Below, in pieces: positions 3,809-60,656 of a stretch of 64,000 nucleotides of DNA (positions are counted from its first letter, which is position 1; each line of letters opens with the position of its first letter). The stretch comes from Sinomonas atrocyanea (GTDB lineage: Bacteria > Actinomycetota > Actinomycetes > Actinomycetales > Micrococcaceae). The stretch spans positions 1-64,000 of the forward strand of contig NZ_JAUSRH010000015.1 of NCBI RefSeq assembly GCF_030811715.1, written 5' to 3'. The position numbers and the translations under genes were made by a program. Below the pieces are notes generated by a model. That model saw only the letters and a program-made list of their open reading frames with translations. It had not been told where the DNA came from and did no database searches.

Positions 3809-4795
3809 TCAGGCTCGGTTGCGGCGGTAGGCGGCGTCGGGGTCGAGGGCGATGGGGGCGATCTCGCGGTCGATGAGCTGCTCGAGGAGCAGGGCGAGGC
3901 GGTGGCGGGGCTCGTCCTGCCGTGCCCGGTTGATCCAGGCGTGGGCGGCGGTGCCGCGGCCCTGGAGCCAGGACAGCCAGCCGAGGGCGGACAGGATCCC
4001 GGCGCGGTGCCCTGCCGGGGTGTTGGCGAGGGCTGCGGTGAGGGCTTGGATGGCCTTCTCGGCCCGGCTCCAGTCCGGGGCGGTGCCGGGCTGGCCGAGC
4101 AGCAGGGCCCGCAGCTCGGGCATGGGCTCGTTCCCGGTGGCGATGGTCGCGGCGATCAGGCGGTCGCGGACCTCGTCGGCGCGGGAGAGGGCGGCGGCGA
4201 GCTGGTAGGCGTCGGCGGGCAGGAGTACCCGGTCGGCGTTGATCAGGGCGTGCCACCACGCCACGGCGGCGCGGGCGCTCTTGGGGGCGATGGCGGCGAT
4301 CCGCTCGGCCGCGTCGGGGGCTCCGGTGAAGGGGACGTCGTCGGGGGCGGCGTCGAGGACGACGGAGCCGCGGGCGACCAGCTCGGCGTTGATGAGGCTG
4401 TCGCGGACCTGCTCGGCGGTGCCGCCCTGTCCGGGGAGGTCGAGCCGTTCCCAGCCGGTGCCGGTGACGTGAACGCTGGCGAGCAGGCCGATGCCCAGGC
4501 ACGCGGCCCGGGCGTGGACGTGCGCGCCGATGACGGCGGCCTGTTCCCGGTCGGGGGTGTAGACGGCGACGAAGACGGACTCGGTCGTGGTCGCGCCGGT
4601 GGCGAGGTGGAAGACGCGGGCGGCGGCCTCGTCGGGGTCCTGGTCGGCGGTCAGGAGCATCCGCAGGCCTGCGCCGAGGCGCCTGTCGGGGCCGATGGTG
4701 ATCAGGACGAGGGAGTCCTCGGGGGTGCGGCCGAACTGGTGGTCGATGTGGGCGAGCATCGAGGCGGGGCCGTCGACCTTGAGCGTTGCCTTCAT
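3809..4795 (-). CDS. DUF4192 family protein
   Basis: 328 aa. The N-terminus (MLAHIDHQFGRTPEDSLVLITIG at about 12-34) matches the start of DUF4192, an actinobacterial family of unknown biochemical function found on chromosomes and plasmids. The rest is alpha/beta then helical (QLAAALSRADEVRDRLIAA, HRAGILSALGWLSWLQG). Start ATG at 4795 behind AAGGAGAAGACACC; the frame upstream is read-through of the long leader. It is monocistronic, with its own terminator and a leader shared with the DUF3846 gene, so the two are likely co-regulated. Confidence 0.75.
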   Translation of the reverse strand: MKATLKVDGPASMLAHIDHQFGRTPEDSLVLITIGPDRRLGAGLRMLLTADQDPDEAAARVFHLATGATTTESVFVAVYTPDREQAAVIGAHVHARAACLGIGLLASVHVTGTGWERLDLPGQGGTAEQVRDSLINAELVARGSVVLDAAPDDVPFTGAPDAAERIAAIAPKSARAAVAWWHALINADRVLLPADAYQLAAALSRADEVRDRLIAATIATGNEPMPELRALLLGQPGTAPDWSRAEKAIQALTAALANTPAGHRAGILSALGWLSWLQGRGTAAHAWINRARQDEPRHRLALLLEQLIDREIAPIALDPDAAYRRNRA

Positions 4796-5138
4796 GGTGT
4801 CTTCTCCTTGTGGTTGGTGGGCCGGGAGGGTGTGGTGACCAGCCGGTGCCTCTCCCCCGCCCCATCGTTTTTTCGGCTGGCGAACTTGTTCGCTTGCACC
4901 CGCGGAGCCGGCAGCAACCCGAAGGGCAAGCCCCGGGCGAATCTGCGGAGGAAACAAGCGACGGAGGAGCGCCGGAGCTGATTCGTCCGGGGCGCAGGCC
5001 CCGACGGAGGAGGGGCTTGTGCCGGTGGAGCGGGTGCGTACAATCCGCAGGACAGCCGAAAGAACGATTCGAGGGCCCGGGACCCGGACGGGGCCGGAGC
5101 GCAGCGGAGGGCACCAGTGCCGGCCCGGGCCGGGCCGC
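4796..5138 (-). promoter_or_regulatory. Conserved long leader, copy A (upstream of DUF4192 gene)
   Basis: No gene here. Reading leftward, blocks nearly identical to copy B (8052-8454) occur in the same order. These are GTGCGTACAATCCGCAGGAC (about 5034-5053), CCCCGACGGAGGAGGGGCT (about 5000-5018), AATCTGCGGAGGAAA with GCGCCGGAGC (4940-4978), and the palindrome GCGAACTTGTTCGC (4880-4893) followed on the minus strand by AAAAAA. Differences lie mainly between blocks and in loops. This suggests a roughly 240-nt 5' leader with conserved structure or shared protein sites. Function is inferred. Confidence 0.6.
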
Positions 5139-5174
5139 GCTCCGGGCCGGAGCGCGGGGCGCACGGGCCGGCCG
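5139..5174. repeat. Palindromic element, copy 2 of 3
   Basis: GCTCCGGGCCGGAGC at 5139-5153, followed by the same GCGGGGCGCACGGGCC extension as copy 1. It sits between leader A and the terminator at 5177-5206. Confidence 0.7.
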
Positions 5175-5176
5175 CG

Positions 5177-5206
5177 CCACGGGCCCCCTTGGCAGGGGGC
5201 CCGTGG
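5177..5206 (-). terminator. Terminator originally serving the ParB-like gene
   Basis: Perfect 12-bp inverted repeat CCACGGGCCCCC (5177-5188) and its complement (5195-5206) with a TTGGCA loop. Before IS481 inserted, it would have lain just past the stop of the ParB-like gene now at 6304. Confidence 0.7.
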
Positions 5207-5220
5207 CCGTGGGCCGCTAG

Positions 5221-6302
5221 TTGTACCCGGTCATGAGGTTGGTTGCAGTCGGCTGGTGGGGGGTTTGCCTCCGAGTGCGCTGTGACAGCGTTCAGTGTTG
5301 TAGTGCTCGATCCAGGGTGCAAGGGCGGCTGTTCGTTGGTCGTTGCTGGTGAACGGCTGGCGGTAGGCCCACTCGGTGGCCAGGGTGCGGTTGAGCCTTT
5401 CGACCTTGCCGTTCTGCCAGGGGCAGTGGGGGCGGATGAACTTCTGCCTGATCTCCAGTGCGGCGCAGACGCGCTTGAGGTCGTTGGAGTGGCGGTAGGC
5501 GAAGGCGTTGTCGGTCATGAGCCGCTCGATCCGGGCGATGCCCTTGGCCGCGAAGTAGGCCGCGGCGCGTTCGAGGAAGCCGGCGCAGGTGGGGCCCTTC
5601 TCGTCCGGGAGGATCTCGGAGTAGGCCAGCCGGGAGTGGTCATCGACCATCGAGTGGACGTAGTCGTAGCCGATCGGGGTCTTGCGGTCGCGGTTTCCCC
5701 CGGCCCGGCCGAGGGCGCGCCAGCCTCCGCCCTCGGGGATCCGGCCCAGCTTCTTCACGTCCATGTGGACCAGCTCCCCGGGCCGGGCCCGCTCGTAGCG
5801 GACCGCGGTGGACTTCGAGGAGCGGATCGGGTCCCCGGTCATCGGGTCGCACTCGCGCAGGTGCGGCACCCCGTGCCGGCGGAGGATCCGCGACACCGTC
5901 CTGGCCGGGACGCCGACTTTGGGCCCGAGCGCGTCCGGACCCTGCCGGTGCTCGGCCCGGGCCGCGAGGACCTTCTGCTCGACCTCGGGTGCGGTCCGGG
6001 TGGGCGTCGTGTGCGGCCTCGAGGAGCGGGTCTCCAGGCCGGCCTCGCCCTCGGCCCGGTGCCGGTCGATCCAGGTCTTCACGCACTTGCGGGAGACACC
6101 CATCGCCGCGGCGATATGGGCCTGCTTCCAACCGGCCCGGTGCCGGTCGACGATCAGCTTCCGGCCATGGACGGTCAGCCGGGCATTACGGTGGGACATG
6201 AGAGCCTCCGGGTTGGAGTGGGCCTTAGACAAGCCACATCCCACCCGGAGGTTCTCCCACGTTCAACCAGACGCGCCGCAACCAACGTCCTGGCCGGGTA
6301 CA
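5221..6302 (-). mobile_element. IS481-family insertion sequence
   Basis: About 1.08 kb. The ends are imperfect inverted repeats: left TGTACCCGGTCATGAGG (5222 on) against the complement of the right end TGTACCCGGCCAGGACG (to 6302), then GTTGGTTGC in both. GCTAG flanks both sides (5216-5220 and 6303-6307) and is probably a 5-bp target duplication. It encodes one intact DDE transposase. The insertion falls exactly on the stop codon of the ParB-like gene. Confidence 0.85.
5231..6199 (-). CDS. IS481-family transposase
   Basis: 322 aa from the ATG at 6199 (MSHRNARLTVHGRK), preceded by a GGAGG-like stretch. The N-terminal helix-turn-helix (WKQAHIAAAMGVSRKCVKTWIDR) binds the inverted repeats. The central and C-terminal integrase core carries the DDE residues: D in HMDVKKLG, D in MTDNAFAY and E in NGKVERLNRTL. 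Length and motifs agree with complete IS481 transposases, so the element may be active. Catalyses cut-and-paste or copy-paste transposition of its own element. Confidence 0.92.
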   Translation of the reverse strand: MSHRNARLTVHGRKLIVDRHRAGWKQAHIAAAMGVSRKCVKTWIDRHRAEGEAGLETRSSRPHTTPTRTAPEVEQKVLAARAEHRQGPDALGPKVGVPARTVSRILRRHGVPHLRECDPMTGDPIRSSKSTAVRYERARPGELVHMDVKKLGRIPEGGGWRALGRAGGNRDRKTPIGYDYVHSMVDDHSRLAYSEILPDEKGPTCAGFLERAAAYFAAKGIARIERLMTDNAFAYRHSNDLKRVCAALEIRQKFIRPHCPWQNGKVERLNRTLATEWAYRQPFTSNDQRTAALAPWIEHYNTERCHSALGGKPPTSRLQPTS

Positions 6303-6303
6303 G

Positions 6304-7611
6304 CTAGGCGTCGTCGGTGATGATGCGCTCGACGTCGGAGGGCTGGTAGCCCCAGTCGGCCAGCTGGGTCAGGTACGCGCGCAGGGCCGCGTTGGGGGCG
6401 CGCCAGCAGTCCTTGGGCATGTTCTTCTCGAACCCGGCGAAGGCCAGGGCGAGCAGGGGCACGTGCGGCCGCCCGGGGTGGGTGGCGGCGTAGTCGGCAA
6501 TCGCGCTCCCGTTCCAGTCGTTCTCGACCGCGCACCCGGCGAGCGTCGCGGCGAGGGAGGAGTCCCGCTCCCCGGCGATGCGGTGGTGCTCGGTGAGGGC
6601 GGCGGCGAGGAACTGCGCCCAGCCCTTGGGGGCGCTCTTGCGGGCGAGCAGGTCGTGGACCCATGCGCGGCGGACCTTGGTCGCGGACTCCATGGCCTTG
6701 TTGTTTGCGATCAGGGCCTTGCGCTCGGCCTTCTGCTCCTCGGTCATCGGCCCGGTCTGCCGCTCGGTGCTGCGGTAGGGCTCGCGGGCGGTGTAGCCCT
6801 GCTCGGCCCAGCCGGTGATGCCGAGGCTGGCCTGCACGGTGCCGTCCCAGTGGTGGCGGAGGCTGACCGCGTTGGCCGCGTCCTCGTCGGGGTGGTTGCC
6901 CTCCGGGTCGGTGAGGTAGGACAGGCCGACGGCCTCGTCCTCGCGGCTCCAGCCCACGTGCTCCACGACCGTGAGGCCGCGCGCCTCGTACTCGGCGGCG
7001 GCCGCCGCGAGCTGGCGGGCACGCTCGCGCTCGTCGCGCAGGCGCTGGGCGGTGTGGTCGAGCATGTCGGGCCGGTCGGCGATCACGTCCTCCAGCATCG
7101 CGGTGGCCTCGGTGTCGTCGGCGAACTCGGCCAGGATCAGTGCCTGGTCCACGGTGTGCCCGGCGACGAGCGCGGCCGCTGCGGTGTCGTCCGTGCGGGC
7201 GGCGATGGCCTTCTCGACGGCGGTCCTGTCGGCCCCGGCGCGCTTGGCGATCTGCGCGGCGGGGACGCCGAGCAGGGCCAGCTGGTGGAACGCCTCGGCC
7301 CGGTCGGCCTCGGTCAGTCCCTGCCGCTGCTCGTTCTCCGCGACCTGCGTGGCGAGCCGGTCGGCCTCCTCGGGGGTGGCTGTGACATAGACCGGGACGG
7401 TGTCCAGCCCGGCCTGCACGGCGGCGAGGGTGCGGCGCTGGCCGTAGAGGACGCGCAGGGCGGCGTCCTCGGTGCGGCACGCCACGATGGGGACGAGGAC
7501 GCCGTTGGCGGCGATGTTGGCCACGAAGGCCTCGGTCAGGGCCGCCTCGCGGCGGACGTTGGTCTCGGTGAGCAGCTGGGTCGGGTCGACGAGCTCGATG
7601 GTCTGGGTCAT
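6304..7611 (-). CDS. ParB/RepB/Spo0J-like DNA-binding protein
   Basis: 435 aa. The ParB N-terminal domain spans about residues 1-100: LLTETNVRRE, GVLVPIVAC and the box II-like GQRRTLAA (GERR in most ParB). A KorB-like helix-turn-helix follows at about 105-145 (LGVPAAQIAKRAGADRTAVEKAI). The C-terminal 200 residues are specific, with a helical middle (EEQKAERKALIANNKAME). The partition pair is elsewhere (15,037-16,367), so this is more likely a regulator or accessory ParB-like protein than the main centromere binder. Its TAG stop lies inside the IS481 target duplication, so the product is unaffected. Good ribosome binding site (AGGAGCCAAGAAGCC). Confidence 0.85.
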   Translation of the reverse strand: MTQTIELVDPTQLLTETNVRREAALTEAFVANIAANGVLVPIVACRTEDAALRVLYGQRRTLAAVQAGLDTVPVYVTATPEEADRLATQVAENEQRQGLTEADRAEAFHQLALLGVPAAQIAKRAGADRTAVEKAIAARTDDTAAAALVAGHTVDQALILAEFADDTEATAMLEDVIADRPDMLDHTAQRLRDERERARQLAAAAAEYEARGLTVVEHVGWSREDEAVGLSYLTDPEGNHPDEDAANAVSLRHHWDGTVQASLGITGWAEQGYTAREPYRSTERQTGPMTEEQKAERKALIANNKAMESATKVRRAWVHDLLARKSAPKGWAQFLAAALTEHHRIAGERDSSLAATLAGCAVENDWNGSAIADYAATHPGRPHVPLLALAFAGFEKNMPKDCWRAPNAALRAYLTQLADWGYQPSDVERIITDDA

Positions 7612-7655
7612 GGCTTCTTGGCTCCTGTGGTGGTCACTGGGGTCTGTCCGGGAGG

Positions 7656-7689
7656 GGGTGCCCCGGCCCCTCGCGGGGCCGGGGCACCC
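7656..7689 (-). terminator. Terminator of the DUF3846 gene
   Basis: Perfect 15-bp inverted repeat GGGTGCCCCGGCCCC (7656-7670) and complement (7675-7689) with a TCGC tetraloop, between the DUF3846 stop and the ParB-like start. It makes the ParB-like gene depend on its own promoter. Confidence 0.8.
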
Positions 7690-7697
7690 GTGTGCGG

Positions 7698-8051
7698 TCA
7701 GGCGACGGAGAGCTCGGTCTCGAAGTAGTCCTCCGCGACCCGGAGCAGGGCGGCGGGCACGTCGGCCTCGTCCCCGTCAGGGGTCGAGCCGAGGAAGACC
7801 GCGTCCCCGGCGAAGAGGTCGCACGCCGGTACACCGGCCTCCAGCAGCAGGAACGCTGCGTGGAGGTTGGGCCTGAGGCCGAGGATCTTGCCCTCCGCGT
7901 GGAGGTAGACGTGCGCGGAGCCGAAGGCCACGGCCTCGATGTCGCCCCCGACGAGGCCCTGCAGGGTCGGCAGGTCCGCTGCGATGGTCTCCACGCGCGG
8001 GGCCGCCGTGCGCCCGGCCGGGACGATGAGGGCCTTCACGATGCTGGTCAT
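7698..8051 (-). CDS. DUF3846 domain protein
   Basis: 117 aa from the ATG at 8051 (MTSIVKALIVPAG), ribosome binding site AAGGAGACACACC. The stretch TIAADLPTLQGLVGGDIEAVAF followed by VYLHAEGKILGL matches DUF3846, a small family common on actinobacterial plasmids and phages. It has an (alpha+beta) layout and no catalytic motif that I can name. It shares its long leader and the upstream palindromic element with the DUF4192 gene, which argues for common control. Confidence 0.75.
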   Translation of the reverse strand: MTSIVKALIVPAGRTAAPRVETIAADLPTLQGLVGGDIEAVAFGSAHVYLHAEGKILGLRPNLHAAFLLLEAGVPACDLFAGDAVFLGSTPDGDEADVPAALLRVAEDYFETELSVA

Positions 8052-8454
8052 GGTGTGTCTCCTTGTGGTCGGTGGGCCGGGGGGCTGTGGTGACCAGCCG
8101 GGCTCCCCTCCCCCGTTCGTTTTTCGGCTGGCGAACTTGTTCGCTTGCACCCGGCCGGGACCTGCTACCCGAAGGGCGGCGCCGCCGGGAAATCTGCGGA
8201 GGAAATAAGCGACGAAGGAGCGCCGGAGCAGAATTCCCGGCGGTGACGGCCCCGACGAAGGAGGGGCTAGCCGGTTCCGGGCGGGTGCGTACAATCCGCA
8301 GGACAGCCGAAAGACGAAGAGAATCCCCGGGGCATGGACGGGGCCGGAGCGAAGCGGAGGCACCGGCCATGCCCCGGGGCCACAGCCCGAGCGCAGCGAG
8401 GACCGAATCCCCAGGGCGCAGCGGAGGGCATCAGCGCTGGCCGGGACCAGGCCG
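8052..8454 (-). promoter_or_regulatory. Conserved long leader, copy B (upstream of DUF3846 gene)
   Basis: No credible gene in this 600-base gap up to 8,653. It holds the same ordered blocks as copy A: GCGAACTTGTTCGC (8131-8144), AATCTGCGGAGGAAA (8190-8204), GACGAAGGAGCGCCGGAGC (8211-8229), CCCCGACGAAGGAGGGGCT (8250-8268) and GTGCGTACAATCCGCAGGAC (8285-8304). Conserved block spacing with drift between blocks suggests selection on RNA structure or binding sites rather than a recent duplication. Confidence 0.6.
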
Positions 8455-8480
8455 GCTCCGGGCCGGAGCGCGGGGCGGCC
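8455..8480. repeat. Palindromic element, copy 3 of 3
   Basis: GCTCCGGGCCGGAGC at 8455-8469 followed by GCGGGGCGGCC. The downstream extension diverges from copies 1 and 2 after about 22 bases. Confidence 0.65.
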
Positions 8481-8653
8481 CTTCGTGCCTGCTGTCCTCT
8501 TCGCTGCGGGCGACGCCATGGCTAGCATGGCGGCCATGGAGTCTTTCGCCTCGGGGCGCGTGCGCCGCTGATGAAGCAGCTCTGACCCGTCGGCAGCGCC
8601 GACGGAGGGCTGTTCCCTCATGCCCGTATTCCCCCGACGAAAGGCAGACTCCC

Positions 8654-9136
8654 ATGCTCACACGCCCGTACAGCCCCAGTGATGGGCCACGGATCCTCGA
8701 ACTCACCCTCTCCGTCTTCGGACCGTTCTACGAGGACTCGTTCCGCCCCCTGGTCGGCGAGGTGGTCTTCACGATCCAGCACGGCAATTGGCGCGAAGAC
8801 TACGAGAAGACGGTCCCCGGCCTCCATAACCCCGCGAACGGCAGGCACGTGGACGTCGCCGAGGACGACGGCCGGATCGCCGGCTACGTGGCCTGGCGGG
8901 TCGACCCGGAACGGGGGCACGGCGCGATCGAGATCCTCGCCGTGGACCCCGTCAACCGGCGTGCGGGCCTCGGCCGGGGCCTTTGCGAGCACGCCCTGGG
9001 ACGGATGAAGGCCCTCGGAGCGCGGATGGTGGAGATCGGAACCGGCGGCGACCCGTTCCACGCGCCGGCCCGGGCGCTCTACGAGAGCCTCGGCTGCATC
9101 CAGCTGCCTGTGGCGGTCTACTTCAAGGAGCTGTAG
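8654..9136 (+). CDS. GNAT-family N-acetyltransferase
   Basis: 160 aa from the ATG at 8654 (MLTRPYSPSDG). GNAT fold: N-terminal beta/alpha (DGPRILELTLSVFGPFYED), the motif A acetyl-CoA loop (ILAVDPVNRRAGLGRGLCEHALGRM, with R-x-x-G-x-G) and C-terminal ALYESLGC. It transfers an acetyl group from acetyl-CoA to an unknown amine; resistance-type, tRNA and protein substrates are all possible. It is a solitary rightward gene between leader B and the IS110 element, with no clear operon partner. Confidence 0.85.
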   Translation: MLTRPYSPSDGPRILELTLSVFGPFYEDSFRPLVGEVVFTIQHGNWREDYEKTVPGLHNPANGRHVDVAEDDGRIAGYVAWRVDPERGHGAIEILAVDPVNRRAGLGRGLCEHALGRMKALGARMVEIGTGGDPFHAPARALYESLGCIQLPVAVYFKEL

Positions 9137-9386: not shown

Positions 9387-10589
9387 ATGGGAGTGTCCGG
9401 GAGCCTGCCGGCAGTGTTCGTCGGGCTCGATGTCGGAAAGTCAGATCACCACGCCGTTGCCCTGGGCGTGGACGGGAAGGCCCTGCTGGACCGGGCCCTG
9501 CCCAACGACGAGGCCAGGCTCCGGGCCATCCTCGCAGGCCTCGCCGAACACGGCCCGGTGTTGATGGTCGTGGACCAGCCGGCCACCATTGGGGCCCTGC
9601 CGGTCGCGGTCGCCCAGTCCATGGAAGGGGTCGAGGTGGCCTACCTTCCCGGGCTGGCCATGCGCCGGATCGCGGACCTGCACCCAGGTTCGGCCAAGAC
9701 CGACGCCAGGGACGCGCTGATCATCGCCGAGGCCGCCCGGACCATGCCCCACACACTGCGCCAGATCCGGGCGGACGAGGAGCAGATCGCCGCCCTGGCC
9801 CTGCTGGCCGGGTTCGACGACGACCTCGCGCAGGAGGCCACCGCGGTCTCGAACCGGCTCCGCGGCCTGCTCACCCAGATCCACCCCGCCCTCGAGCGCG
9901 CCCTCGGGCCAAGGGTCGCCCACCCGGCGGTGGCGGACCTGCTCACCCGCTACCCGACCCCCGCCAGACTCAAGGCGGCAGGGCGCGGGCAGGTGCGGGC
10001 GAGGCTGAAGAAGCACGCCCCGCGCCTGGCCGAACGGCTCACCCAGGAGGTCTACACCGCCCTGGGCGAGCAGAGCGTCACCGTGCCCGGCACCGACGCC
10101 GCCGGGGTCGTGATCCCGATCCTGGCCGAGCAGCTCGCGACGCTCACCCGCCAGCGGGACGAGGTAGCGGCCCAGGTCGAGGCCCTCGTGGAGGCCCACC
10201 CTCTTCACGAGGTCCTGACCTCGCTCCCCGGAGTCGGGGTCAGGACCGCAGCGAGGATCCTCACCGAAGTCGTGGGCAAGGACTTCAAGGACGCCGCCCA
10301 CCTGGCCTCCTACGCCGGCATCGCCCCGGTCACCCGAAGATCCGGGACTTCGATCCGCGGCGAGCACGCCCCAAGGGGCGGGAACAAGCGCATCAAACGC
10401 GCCCTGTTCCTCTCGGCCTTCGCCTCACTGAGCCACCCGCCGTCCAGGGTCTACTACGACCGAAAACGAGCCCAGGGCAAACGGCACAACCAAGCACTCA
10501 TCGCCCTCGCCCGCCGCCGCTGCGACGTCCTCTTCGCCATGCTCCGCGACGGCACCCTCTACCAGCCCCCAGCCTCCGCCGCGGCTTGA
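9387..10589 (+). CDS. IS110-family transposase
   Basis: 400 aa, full length. The N-terminal DEDD RuvC-like domain starts with FVGLDVGKSDHHAVAL and includes SAKTDARDALIIAEAAR with the conserved acidic residues. A coiled middle follows (AEQLATLTRQRDEVAAQVEALVEA). The C-terminal Tnp20 domain has LPGVGVRTAARILTEV, ASYAGIAPVTRRSGTS and the Ser-containing region SAFASLSHPPSRVYYDRKRAQGK. Start ATG at 9387 follows GGGAAGGAGAGCGC. The enzyme recombines its element using a bridge RNA in this family, and all motifs appear intact. Confidence 0.93.
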   Translation: MGVSGSLPAVFVGLDVGKSDHHAVALGVDGKALLDRALPNDEARLRAILAGLAEHGPVLMVVDQPATIGALPVAVAQSMEGVEVAYLPGLAMRRIADLHPGSAKTDARDALIIAEAARTMPHTLRQIRADEEQIAALALLAGFDDDLAQEATAVSNRLRGLLTQIHPALERALGPRVAHPAVADLLTRYPTPARLKAAGRGQVRARLKKHAPRLAERLTQEVYTALGEQSVTVPGTDAAGVVIPILAEQLATLTRQRDEVAAQVEALVEAHPLHEVLTSLPGVGVRTAARILTEVVGKDFKDAAHLASYAGIAPVTRRSGTSIRGEHAPRGGNKRIKRALFLSAFASLSHPPSRVYYDRKRAQGKRHNQALIALARRRCDVLFAMLRDGTLYQPPASAAA

Positions 10590-12994: not shown

Positions 12995-14098
12995 CTACTC
13001 GCAGGCGACCCCGTCGCGGTCGCGGTCCAATTTGGTGCTGTAGCCGGGCTGGCCGGCGTACAGGGGTGCCGCGCCGGCGGCCCGGGCCGCCGCGCAGTTC
13101 GCGTAGTACACCCCGGCCGGGGCAGGAGCCGGCGCAACGGGGGCGGGCGCAGGCTGGGCAGGGGCAGGAGCCACCGGGGCCGGGGCTGCAGGTACTGCGG
13201 GAGCAGGAGCAGCCTTGGCGGGCGCCTTCTGGTCCGTGGGGACCTGCTGGTCCGGGCAGGAGGCCAGGACCCGGGCGATCGCGTCATGCTCGGCCCGGGT
13301 CACCCACAGGCCGTAGGTCGCCTTCACCGAGACCTGCCTCGCTACGTACTGGCACCGGTACGACCTGTTCGACGGCAGCCACGTCGCGGCGTCCCCATCG
13401 CCCTTGGCCTCATTCGTCGGCCCGTCCACCGCCAGCAGGTTCAACGGGTCATTCGCCAGCGCGGTGCGCTGGGCGGCGGTGAGCTGCTGTGCCCCCTTCT
13501 GCCACGCATCCGACAGGGCCACGACGTGGTCGATCTGCACCGCCGTGCTCGTGCCATTCCCGCGCACGAAGCCGATCGCCTTCCCCGTGCACGGGTCGTC
13601 GAGGGTGCCGGAGGCGATCCGGCACCTGCTCCCGGCCGTGTACGCCGTCCCTGTCAGGTCGCGGGCGAGGATGTCGTTGCGGGTGTCGCACCCGTTGTGG
13701 TCCACGTCCGCCCACGCCTGGCCGAACTGGTCACGGGTGTACCCGGTCTTCGGGGCCCGGCCCTTCACCGGCAGCGTCGCCAGCAGGTCCACGGCCTTCG
13801 TCGCGTAGGCCGGCTGCGCCTTCGGGGCCGAGCCGTCGGCCGCGACCACGGTGTCCGGGTCCAGCGGCTCCCCCGACGTGGACGCTGTCGGCGACGCCGT
13901 GGCCGTCGGTGAAGCAGACACGACGGCCGGCGCCGTGGACAGCGTGGGCTGCGCCTTCGCAGCCGCGGACGCTCCCCCGCCGCACCCGGACAGCAGGAGC
14001 GCCAGGGCTCCGCCTCCTGCCAGGACGATGCTCTTCACCGCCCGGCCCCTCCGGCCGTCGGTGGATGACCCGGCAATGGCCGGCTGCGTAGTGCTCAT
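12995..14098 (-). CDS. Secreted lipoprotein nuclease (DUF1524 HNH domain plus excalibur domain)
   Basis: 367 aa from the ATG at 14098. Lipoprotein signal: RRGR, a hydrophobic stretch and the lipobox LLSGC with Cys39. A Ser/Thr/Pro/Ala linker runs to about 100. The DUF1524/HNH-like nuclease domain at about 110-270 contains CDTRNDILARDL, VQIDHVVALSDAW (catalytic DH) and a late motif NEAKGDGDAATWLPSN. A Pro/Ala repeat spacer follows, then a C-terminal excalibur domain ending LDRDRDGVACE with DxDxDG calcium-type residues. It probably degrades extracellular DNA or RNA at the cell surface. Single gene with its own terminator. Confidence 0.85.
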   Translation of the reverse strand: MSTTQPAIAGSSTDGRRGRAVKSIVLAGGGALALLLSGCGGGASAAAKAQPTLSTAPAVVSASPTATASPTASTSGEPLDPDTVVAADGSAPKAQPAYATKAVDLLATLPVKGRAPKTGYTRDQFGQAWADVDHNGCDTRNDILARDLTGTAYTAGSRCRIASGTLDDPCTGKAIGFVRGNGTSTAVQIDHVVALSDAWQKGAQQLTAAQRTALANDPLNLLAVDGPTNEAKGDGDAATWLPSNRSYRCQYVARQVSVKATYGLWVTRAEHDAIARVLASCPDQQVPTDQKAPAKAAPAPAVPAAPAPVAPAPAQPAPAPVAPAPAPAGVYYANCAAARAAGAAPLYAGQPGYSTKLDRDRDGVACE

Positions 14099-14255
14099 GT
14101 TCGGTTGTCCCCCAAATAGGTCTTCCAAGAATCCCGGCCCAGCGGTGCGAATGCGGGGCCGACAGGGGTGACTCTAGGTGCGCGCACCGACAGCCCACGC
14201 CCCTGAGCGTGGAAGTCCCGGCAGTGTCCGCGTTCACCGAGGCGGTGCTGTTGCG

Positions 14256-58443: not shown

Positions 58444-60054
58444 TCAGCGGCCCCGTCCTCGGTCCTTGTCCCTGCCGGGCGTGGGCTTGGGTCCCACGGT
58501 CCGCTCCGGGGCGTCCCCGGGAGCCTGGGTCGGTGCCCCCGGGAACGACTGGGCGACGAGGCGCCGCACCTGCTCCTCCTCGCTCTCCACGCGCGGGGCA
58601 GCGGCGAGCCAGCCGGACCCCGCGGCGGCCGGGGCCTGCTCGGTCGCGTGCTGGGTCTGGAGGGCCTGGAGGTCTCCGCGGACGATGGTGAGCTTGTCCA
58701 TGGCCGCGGCCCTGACACGCTCGGCGTCGCCGAGCCTGTCGGCGGCCTTGTGCATGTCGTGGATGGCGCGCATGGTGTTGCGCAGCTGGGCCAGCAGCAG
58801 GGCGTGGCCGGCTGCCGTGGACGGCCCCACGGAGGTCTGCATGAGCAGCATGCCCGCGCCCTTCGCGCTGGGCATGGGCGCGTGCTCGACCCTGGGCGGG
58901 AAGCGGCGCAGCTGGGCCGTGCGGGCCAGCGCCTTGGCGGTGTCCGCCAGCGGCCCGGGCACCGCCTCGGTGCGCAGGCTCCAGGCGGCGAAGGCGCCGG
59001 AGGTTTCGCGCGCGATCTGGGCCCAGAGGGCGTCATCGTCGAGCGGGATCGTCTTCATCCGCTCGTAGAGCTGGCCGACTTCGGCGGTGGCCTTCTCCCA
59101 CTCGGCGGCAGTGGGCTCGTGGACCTCGCGGCCCTCGGTGGTCGGGCGCTTCCCCTGGGCGGCCGCCTGCCATTCGGCAAGGGCTGCGGCCACGGTCTCG
59201 TCCGTGACGTTCCAGCCCTTGCGCAGCTGCGGCAGGGTCAGGTCCCGGGCGATCTTTCCGCCGCCGAACCACACCGGCTTCTCCGCCTTGCTCTCTGGCC
59301 GGAGGGCGACTGAGTAGCCGGCAATTGCCCCGGCGCCTCCCTGGGCGAAGCGGGGTCGTACGAGGACCCCGGAGCGGCGCAGGCGCCGGACGAACTCGGC
59401 CTCGTCCATGCTCGCGGTGGACGCCGCGCGCAGGACGCGCTGGAGGCGGTCACGGCCCAGCTCTGCCGCGCCCATCGCGACGGCGCGTTCCCGTTCCTTG
59501 GGGTGGTAGCCGCGCTCGGCATGCGGCCCGCGCACGACGCGCAGACCGTGCTCGGCCTCGAGCTCCGCGCAGGCGTCCTGGGCGCGCTTGAAGTCCTTGT
59601 GCTGGCTCCACCGGGTGCCGTCCTCCCGGACCATGGAGACGGCAAGGTGGATGTGGTCATTGCCCGCCGTACTGGACCCGTGGTGGATGGCGATCCACCG
59701 GCACGGCGGCTTGCCGTCGCTGCCGGTGAAACCCATCTTCTCCGCGAAGCCGTGGGCGATCTTCCCCCACGCTTCATCACTGAGCTGTCCTTCATCGGCG
59801 GGCAGGCTCAGCGAGACGTGGAAGACGTGCCTGGCCCCTTCCCTGCCGGCACCGAAGACGGACTTGGGGATGTCCATCTCGCGGCCGAGAGCAAGGGCCG
59901 AGCCGGCGTCCAGGCGCTGCCCGACCTCGACACTGACGATCGACTCGGACGCCGCGATCAGCCGCTGGTCCTTGTGCTCGTTCGCGCGTCCCCGGCCCAC
60001 CAGGTAGTTGATCAGCCCGACCATGCGGTCGCCCTTGGTGACGTTCGGGATCAT
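58444..60054 (-). CDS. Conjugative relaxase (MOBP-like)
   Basis: 536 aa. Relaxase domain at about 1-200: N-terminal MIPNVTKGDRMVGLINYLVG with candidate catalytic Tyr17, histidines in RHVFHVSLSLPAD, and the three-His metal site around HHGSSTAGNDHIHLAVS. Then a helical C-terminus that may bind the coupling protein. Nicks oriT and pilots the strand into the recipient. The start overlaps the MobC-like gene by 4 bases. It lies about 22 kb from traG, so the mob and channel genes are separate blocks. Confidence 0.9.
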   Translation of the reverse strand: MIPNVTKGDRMVGLINYLVGRGRANEHKDQRLIAASESIVSVEVGQRLDAGSALALGREMDIPKSVFGAGREGARHVFHVSLSLPADEGQLSDEAWGKIAHGFAEKMGFTGSDGKPPCRWIAIHHGSSTAGNDHIHLAVSMVREDGTRWSQHKDFKRAQDACAELEAEHGLRVVRGPHAERGYHPKERERAVAMGAAELGRDRLQRVLRAASTASMDEAEFVRRLRRSGVLVRPRFAQGGAGAIAGYSVALRPESKAEKPVWFGGGKIARDLTLPQLRKGWNVTDETVAAALAEWQAAAQGKRPTTEGREVHEPTAAEWEKATAEVGQLYERMKTIPLDDDALWAQIARETSGAFAAWSLRTEAVPGPLADTAKALARTAQLRRFPPRVEHAPMPSAKGAGMLLMQTSVGPSTAAGHALLLAQLRNTMRAIHDMHKAADRLGDAERVRAAAMDKLTIVRGDLQALQTQHATEQAPAAAGSGWLAAAPRVESEEEQVRRLVAQSFPGAPTQAPGDAPERTVGPKPTPGRDKDRGRGR

Positions 60055-60443
60055 GGGCGCATCACCGCCACCACGGCCTCGTCGATGCGGGCCATGAGAC
60101 GACGCGCAGCGGCCACCGCCGCGGCGGCGTCATCGGGGAATTCTCCGGTGGCGTTCGCGTGCCGGGCGATCTGGTTCACGTTGTTCGACACAGCCCCGAG
60201 AAGGGTCCGGATCCCCAGCAGCTCCTGCGCGAGGTTGCGCCGGTCGAAAGCAGTCTCCCCCGGCTGGGCCATGGCGCTCTCGAACAGCAGACGCGGCGGC
60301 GTCACACCCTGCTGCTCGGCCTTGACGACGACAGCGGCCTTCTCCTCCGGGGAGCACCAGACCTTGATGTACTCCTTGCGGCCGCCACGCTCGTTGTCAC
60401 GGCGCGACTTGCCGAGGCGGCGTACCGTCTTGGCCTCACCCAT
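60051..60443 (-). CDS. mobC: MobC-like relaxosome protein
   Basis: 130 aa from the ATG at 60443 behind GGAGCGTC. Basic N-terminus and RHH-like segment (RKEYIKVWCSPEEKAAVVVKAEQQGVTPPRLLFESAM) followed by the MobC signature LLGIRTLLGAVSNNVNQIARHANATGEFP. It opens or bends oriT so the relaxase can nick. Translationally coupled to the relaxase. Confidence 0.88.
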   Translation of the reverse strand: MGEAKTVRRLGKSRRDNERGGRKEYIKVWCSPEEKAAVVVKAEQQGVTPPRLLFESAMAQPGETAFDRRNLAQELLGIRTLLGAVSNNVNQIARHANATGEFPDDAAAAVAAARRLMARIDEAVVAVMRP

Positions 60444-60656
60444 GACGCTCCTCCCGGCCCAGCGCAGCGACCCCGAACCTCGGGGACCCACACGCCAGTG
60501 TGCCAGAAGCCCGACCCCCGGTCGAGCTTCAAAGCCATTTACGGGCACGTAAATGCATAGCTTGCTCCTCCCTGGGGGCTCCGCCGGTTTCCGAAACCCT
60601 CGGTTCGACGACGGCAAAAGCATGCCTCACAGGGGGTGCGTCGTTAGGCTGGAGCC
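60444..60656. promoter_or_regulatory. Candidate origin of transfer (oriT)
   Basis: 213 non-coding bases upstream of mobC. It holds the palindrome CATTTACG-GGCA-CGTAAATG (60536-60555), GAACCTCGGGGACCC repeats near 60475-60489, and at 60631-60646 AGGGGGTGCGTCGTTA, whose complement TAACGACGCACCCCCT resembles known nic regions (TAAGTGCGCCCT type). Position directly before mobC-relaxase fits an oriT. The nick site is inferred. Confidence 0.5.

Follow-up and report, generated by a model that had tools for sequence, protein, structure and literature searches.

The window analysed in the current study, a stretch of 64,000 nucleotides (nt) from Sinomonas atrocyanea (Micrococcaceae; contig NZ_JAUSRH010000015.1), contains two look-alike non-coding leaders on the minus strand, which share an element of about 205 nt. 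Leader 1 (about 5161->4796) precedes a DUF4192 gene (ATG 4795..3809), and leader 2 (about 8481->8052) precedes a DUF3846 gene (ATG 8051..7698) followed by a ParB-family gene (6304..7611, minus strand). A first inspection of the letters (the original prediction) had proposed that these two leaders carry the same blocks in the same order, and pairwise alignment bore this out, with a mean column identity of 82% and the blocks in order. The block cores of 25 nt and 20 nt occur exactly twice each in the 64 kb, versus 0.00 expected. The predicted identities of the downstream genes were likewise supported by Pfam matches to PF13830 (DUF4192, E=1e-19) and PF12957 (DUF3846, E=1.2e-14). The palindrome GCGAAC-AA-GTTCGC followed by an A-run was also found where it had been described, ending 85 nt (leader 1) and 80 nt (leader 2) before the ATGs, and the reported CU-rich segments are present in the leaders (CTCCTCCGTC / CTCCTTCGTC). 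Below, the window plus strand, which is the template of the genes behind the leaders, is called the T-strand, and the window minus strand the coding strand.

The element belongs to a family found in Micrococcaceae, often on plasmids and in up to five copies per fetched stretch. Leader 1, used as query in a distant blastn search of PLSDB, gave 119 places in 49 records, all from Micrococcaceae (Arthrobacter 31, Pseudarthrobacter 9, Paenarthrobacter 7, Citricoccus 2), and among the 49 best places listed only one is overlapped by an annotated gene. Matches were present in 39 of 197 Micrococcaceae genomes, and a covariance model matched 21 of 396 genomes across the order (as grouped by the search tool), the window's own genome being included in both counts. 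Eleven of these 21 belong to five other families and are more diverged, and five of the eleven cover the model only partially. In a sample of the phylum, the one match among 396 genomes was the window's own. Two copies in total were found in that genome by similarity search and covariance model; the search for further copies there returned none of comparable E-value (next best E=0.0175 over 29 nt). In the fetched loci, an iterated nhmmer search found 110 hits, of which nine were short and the others beyond 82 were duplicates. The alignment used in this study (A2) holds 77 of the 82 distinct full copies, L011_1687, L047_3286, L048_1812, L056_452 and L056_798 having been omitted.

By alignment and folding, the core element was placed at 4861..5064 in leader 1 and at 8112..8312 in leader 2, with the plus strand as the proposed folding strand for all features that follow. 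In the predicted T-strand fold, the outermost helix P1 (4871..4879 pairing with 5053..5061; in leader 2, 8122..8130 pairing with 8304..8312) encloses a bubble and hairpin H6, GCGAAC-TT-GTTCGC (4880..4893 and 8131..8144), which is the palindrome mentioned above. It is followed by helix P2 (4896..4902 pairing with 5031..5037) and then by helix P4 (4907..4917 pairing with 5017-5026, with one bulge). P4 encloses hairpin H4 (CCC-GAA-GGG, 4918..4926), the long stem P3 (4930..4943 pairing with 4980-4993), which is the most variable and carries hairpin H2 (GC-GA-C(GGA)G-GA-GC, 4958..4970), and hairpin H1 (GCCCC-GA-C(GGA)G-GA-GGGGC, 4998..5016). H2 is the complement of the CU-rich CTCCTCCGTC and H1 that of the other CU-rich segment; their putative G.A pairs are read from the sequence. 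The bubble (TACAATCCGNAGGA) separates P2 from P1 and has H6 across from it on the template side; its length, 14 nt, is about the size of a transcription bubble. On the non-template side lies a mini-hairpin, TCC-GCA-GGA, with a GNA loop (5044..5052 and 8295..8303). A regular expression for the bubble motif failed on most of the distant copies owing to sequence divergence. In three copies (L012, L014 and L056) a common foreign sequence with TTGACA/TGTCAA adjoins an edge of P1, as though a mobile element had entered at this point or taken the place of the stem.

In the unfitted MAFFT alignment of the 77 copies, 88.6% of 3871 cells pair, versus 77.8% in shuffled alignments and 37.8-52.1% when the partners were slid by 1-3 columns, a comparison that favours the chosen fold because this fold was picked from one aligned sequence and the consensus. 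Double-sided changes were detected in 30 of the 51 pairs and amount to 404 cells versus 140.4 in shuffles; none of 500 shuffles, which disregard the kinship of the copies, reached this value. Compensatory changes, which the original prediction had proposed to look for in related leaders, are thus abundant; yet, given the wobble, loop and promoter evidence for folding of the template strand, they appear to be a property of the DNA.

The two strands can be told apart by wobble pairs, since the folding strand tolerates G.T (or G.U), and the same cell is A.C on the opposite strand. A neutral per-copy duplex score was used that treats both wobbles alike; its totals comprise P1, P2, P4 and P3 and omit H1, H2, H4 and the mini-hairpin. 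In the 77 copies it counted 121 G.T wobbles on the T-strand versus 18 G.U on the coding strand, and in the 33 copies below 88% identity 60 versus 5, as compared with 66.5 versus 46.2 when the strands were swapped between copies. Plain MAFFT columns of P1, P2 and P4 gave 48 versus 3. Plain-column counts were replaced by per-copy duplexes because misaligned P3 cells are mixed into them.

The loops point to the same strand. Among triloop hairpins with a stem of at least 4 in the upstream block and the core, GNA loops number 53 on the T-strand, where shuffles give 12.2, and 4 on the coding strand, where shuffles give 6.8, in a tally that counts related copies each time. C-G closes 49 of these 53 loops, and the coding strand shows TNC loops. 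In DNA, loops of the c(GNA)g and c(GNNA)g types, as well as tandem G.A steps, are very stable. Moreover, of the 77 copies, 75 show the motif CG(N/NN)AGGA, the core common to H1, H2 and the bubble, on the T-strand, and 2 show it on the coding strand. CTCCTYCGTC, as read on the transcript, is thus complementary to the GA-C(GNA)G-GA tips of these hairpins. The CU-rich segments, which the original prediction had noted as complementary to ribosome-binding sequences, are accordingly the complement of purine-rich hairpin tips on the T-strand.

These data bear on the possibility that the leaders are structured 5' leader RNAs (attenuator, riboswitch or translational control), transcribed from an upstream double-stranded DNA (dsDNA) promoter and regulating DUF4192 and DUF3846 through the CU-rich loops. 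The covariation is real, the distance to the start codon is nearly constant (median 71 nt), the CU-rich segments are complementary to the AAGGAG Shine-Dalgarno sequence, and the wobbles of H1 and H4 lean towards the coding strand, all of which an RNA leader would explain. Furthermore, the structured repeat EGeRS1, which precedes establishment operons of pLS20, was left unassigned between ssDNA (single-stranded DNA) and RNA by its authors (PMC8708921). On the other hand, coding-strand G.U pairs are scarce in P1-P4 (18 versus 121) and the coding-strand loops are TNC rather than GNA. Rfam contains no family that matches the window at gathering level and none relevant at the lax level in 4700-8700, where the two matches were unrelated microRNA models inside an insertion sequence. 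An RNA leader is thus unlikely, and the folded molecule is probably the template DNA strand, as judged from the sequences.

RNA polymerase would read the genes off the folded template strand, and the non-template boxes must therefore lie in the 3' arm, running from loop to foot. In leader 1, column conservation and folding revealed a -35-like hexamer, TTGTGC (5017..5022), which is paired in the 3' arm of P4, and a -10-like hexamer, TACAAT (5039..5044), which lies in the bubble 16 nt past it. The corresponding hexamers of leader 2 are TAGCCG (8268..8273) and, again 16 nt further on, TACAAT (8290..8295). Across the family, the -35 columns hold T (76/77), A or T (41 and 33 copies), G (76/77) and A (61/77), the -10 columns hold T (59 copies), A2 (77/77), A5 (75/77) and T6 (77/77), and the spacer is 16 nt in 76 of 77 copies. 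Folding of the T-strand DNA predicted a mean unpaired value of 0.19 for the -35, which would thus be mostly paired, and of 0.68 for the mostly unpaired -10 (A2 0.86, A5 0.92). T6 of the -10, with a mean unpaired value of 0.21, closes the small TCC-GNA-GGA hairpin.

The best sigma-70-like match had a mean score of 8.59 out of 12 on the T-strand, and in 76 of the 82 copies it coincided with the predicted bubble. In the coding direction the mean was 6.67, which does not exceed the shuffled level of 7.15 and argues against an RNA leader. The register was also sought in 14 distant copies outside the alignment (six from Micrococcaceae and eight from five other families, several being close relatives of each other). 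TTGNNN-15/16-NANNNT is present in the expected stretch in 13 of the 14; the coding strand has it in one of them, and shuffles in 3.3%. This count was made without the partial order-wide matches (model positions about 33-170). Other families keep the register with a different sequence, as in TTGACG-16-CAGAGT and TTGACC-16-CAGAAT.

On dsDNA the boxes point away from the gene, as would those of a conventional dsDNA promoter driving antisense or divergent transcription, with the hairpins serving some other role, for example in an RNA of T-strand sequence, which the T-strand wobbles would fit equally. An RNA started from these boxes would begin beyond the fold, however, and would not contain it; P2 and P4, the latter including the -35, covary as helices, most of the -10 is unpaired, and the elements are placed before start codons. 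A promoter of this kind is therefore very improbable. In the direction of the genes, the predicted transcript begins with CCAGC at the P1 foot, and in 71 of 81 copies, where 4.4 would be expected, GCTGG follows at most 50 nt past the core, so that the new mRNA could form its own 5' hairpin and thereby leave the template. For leader 1, the predicted 5' untranslated region with the start codon extends over 4793..4881 (minus strand), with a putative start site near 4880-4881, a Shine-Dalgarno sequence AAGGAG at 4809-4804 and the ATG at 4795-4793.

For 102 copies the next gene was assigned from an automatically chosen open reading frame: 29 encode DUF4192, 21 ParB, 18 a 143-aa protein, 12 DprA and one DUF3846, and 21 were left unassigned, one of the latter with an ArdC antirestriction domain. 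The start codon lies a median of 71 nt past the core (range 10-390). The 143-aa family (L009:16983-17414 and homologues) stands behind 18 of the 102 leaders, and the one member scanned had no Pfam or PADLOC match. A plasmid DprA behind a leader (L009:20328-21236) matched the ShosA models of PADLOC (E=4.3e-47), which raises the possibility that this protein acts in anti-defence or like an antitoxin and not in competence. If the leaders act as proposed here, the family would supply leading-region proteins, namely DUF4192, DUF3846, the 143-aa protein and plasmid DprA, as candidate anti-defence or establishment factors.

All 42 loci with at least two leaders, some of which overlap, showed co-orientation of these leaders. 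In 18 relaxase loci, 50 of 50 leaders are on the strand of the relaxase gene, which lies downstream in 16 of the 18 at a distance of 2.8-20.6 kb; because L044 and L102 appear to be one plasmid, 17 distinct loci is the safer count. In the window, a MOBP relaxase gene (58444..60054, minus) is on the strand of the leaders, with a mobC homologue at 60132-60437 and a candidate oriT just upstream of mobC (approximately 60438..60620), recognised as a conserved block with a CACAC/GTGTG inverted repeat. The window has this block in common with six MOBP plasmids, and it consists of GGAGCAAGCT, an inverted repeat of CACAC/GTGTG type, and CGCTGCGCTGG; an RP4-type nick motif did not occur consistently at the candidate oriT. 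The window contig also encodes SSB and umuC/umuD-like proteins. The gene layout resembles that of the F plasmid, in which ssb, ParB and psiB genes read toward traM, a gene that adjoins the F oriT.

Repeats that fold as ssDNA and adjoin single genes could also be recombination sites (attC-like) or transposon ends that spread gene cassettes, and the common foreign edge sequence of L012, L014 and L056 would suit such a role. The near-constant distance to the start codon, the conserved promoter boxes and the co-orientation with the relaxase are contrary to it, and we consider this explanation exceedingly improbable.

Each leader is most likely an Frpo-like ssDNA promoter for leading-region (establishment) genes, a reading based entirely on computational evidence. 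From the computed features (the homologous family, its conserved fold, the folding strand, the -35/-10 geometry, the gene set and the orientation) we infer the transferred strand, the binding of RNA polymerase, the start site and the timing as follows. During conjugation the transferred strand, which would be the window plus strand and hence the template, would reach the recipient as ssDNA and fold. P1, P2 and P4 would make a duplex-like rod in which P4 offers the -35 as double-stranded DNA, and the -10, sixteen nt further on, would be mostly unpaired in the bubble, which spans about 14 nt and separates P2 from P1. With the -10 in a bubble opposite the template-side H6, the open complex would be largely pre-formed. 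RNA polymerase would start near the P1 foot, about 80-85 nt before the ATG in the window leaders, and DUF4192, DUF3846 and ParB would be transcribed ahead of second-strand synthesis. This synthesis would remove the fold and so turn the promoter off, the boxes on dsDNA facing the opposite way.

The shared regulon and the conserved secondary structure of the original prediction are thus retained, on the evidence of homologues, covariation, gene set and co-orientation. Its cis-acting RNA leader is not: the wobbles in P1, P2, P4 and P3, the GNA loops and the -35/-10 promoter point to folding of the template DNA.

The single-strand origins (sso) of rolling-circle plasmids are also ssDNA folds used by the host RNA polymerase, and they prime replication. 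The present element resembles them in being an ssDNA fold for the host RNA polymerase and differs from them in being repeated before protein genes, which sso are not known to be. The folded T-strand could be mainly a priming site (ssi/sso-like) for second-strand synthesis by RNA polymerase or primase, with expression secondary. The presence of several copies on a plasmid, on the strand of the relaxase, would be in keeping with priming, and Frpo transcripts are described as serving both as primers for DNA synthesis and as mRNA (PMC7736820). Pure priming would need neither the placement of copies before individual genes at a near-constant distance nor a Shine-Dalgarno sequence, and a mainly priming function is improbable.

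A number of observations weigh against the ssDNA promoter. Folding of the coding strand gave similar values (unpaired 0.28 for the -35 and 0.63 for the -10), so the predicted bubble is not diagnostic of the strand. The H1 wobbles, which are outside the totals, were 1 on the T-strand versus 3 on the coding strand by the neutral score, and plain MAFFT columns gave 5 versus 9 for H1, 1 versus 6 for H4 and 60 versus 66 for P3. In distant copies the bias was weaker for P1 (32 versus 17), and it was 40 versus 26 when the alignment was fitted to the coding strand. The minimum free energy was lower for the T-strand in 77 of 77 copies, and also in 75 of 77 composition shuffles, and this comparison was not used; the RNAalifold values of -117 (template) versus -103 (coding) were not counted either, as composition may explain them. 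With regard to the promoter, the -35 and -10 columns were picked after the alignment had been inspected, and the constancy of T6 in the -10 could be due solely to its being part of the mini-hairpin as well. The boxes of the window are middling (TTGTGC and TAGCCG, each with TACAAT), and a stricter plain consensus scan of the window leaders gave no promoter on either strand. L110 has no T6, and among four further copies outside the alignment three had the TTG pattern and L118 had no match. Since some contigs with copies exceed 3 Mb, free plasmids do not account for every copy. In L111 and in the window contig, which is linear as assembled (no end overlap indicating circularity was found), the relaxase does not lie downstream; the window leaders would reach mobC only via the contig end, which would put the relaxase about 32 kb away. 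Finally, the transferred strand was assigned from the usual position of the relaxase, which is typically in the lagging region (Samuel et al., PMC11541004).

The closest known counterparts of the ssDNA promoter proposed here are the multi-copy non-coding elements that precede leading-region genes, namely Frpo of F (Frpo1/Frpo2, ssiD) and ssi2/ssi3 of ColIb-P9. These elements are described as ssDNA folds that present a -35 and a -10 (PMC9849209, PMC11541004). In matings of E. coli, Frpo-dependent expression from F was early and transient (Couturier et al., PMC9849209), and anti-defence genes of leading regions were found to be encoded on the T-strand, suggesting transcription from this strand (Samuel et al., PMC11541004). 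The two Frpo copies of F showed no similarity to the present family (blastn with word size 7 and E 0.1; profile against the F leading region), a comparison confined to F and not including the ColIb-P9 ssi elements. F Frpo served for gene layout only and could not be used as a covariation control, since the 25 hits listed were 86.8-100% identical. The present family, known here from sequence alone, differs from Frpo in its four-stem head, GNA loops, likely G.A steps, near-fixed 16-nt spacer and different phylum. Two recent surveys of ssDNA promoters rely on similarity to known Frpo, one also searching a small number of islands by consensus (PMC11541004, PMC12826799), and elements that lack such similarity would be missed by them.

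EGeRS1 of the Bacillus plasmid pLS20 is likewise GC-rich, structured and multi-copy, and lies directly before the ribosome-binding sites of establishment operons (PMC8708921). Conjugation of pLS20 transfers the non-template strand, and the authors detected no promoter within the fold, on which grounds they regarded an ssDNA promoter as highly unlikely (PMC8708921). The Micrococcaceae element differs in that it has a promoter and its template strand folds, and its gene layout suggests that the opposite strand is transferred. No description of such elements in Actinomycetota was found among the open-access PMC matches listed, a search that covered neither subscription papers nor preprints, and none is given in the available parts of PMC11541004, PMC9849209, PMC8708921, PMC7736820, PMC12826799, PMC12614216 and PMC9024699.

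The family is widespread in Micrococcaceae, with relatives beyond, and is best read as a non-Frpo family of ssDNA promoters, the mechanism itself being likely. On balance, we favour the wider view that mobile elements of Micrococcaceae and related families have their own kind of promoter that works only as ssDNA, without detectable similarity to Frpo, built with DNA-specific motifs (c(GNA)g loops and GA/GA steps) and a register of 16 nt that hardly varies, and copied before several leading-region genes. On that view, zygotic expression from ssDNA would extend to Gram-positive Actinomycetota and would have evolved on at least two occasions. The analysis also provides a covariation-based way to decide whether a folded molecule is a DNA strand or an RNA, which is applicable to other plasmids.

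Upstream of the promoter fold both leaders contain a second block of further hairpins, at 5075..5161 (plus strand) in leader 1 and 8325-8481 in leader 2. Family-wide, the GNA loops of this block are mostly on the T-strand (32 versus 4). An insertion sequence of IS481 type (5217-6307), with 30-nt inverted repeats and a transposase gene at 5231-6199 (minus), lies between the ParB gene and leader 1, and an IS110-type transposase gene (9387-10589, plus strand) lies beyond leader 2. Near the umuC/umuD-like genes, the protein encoded at 12995-14128 contains GmrSD_C nuclease-like and Excalibur domains.

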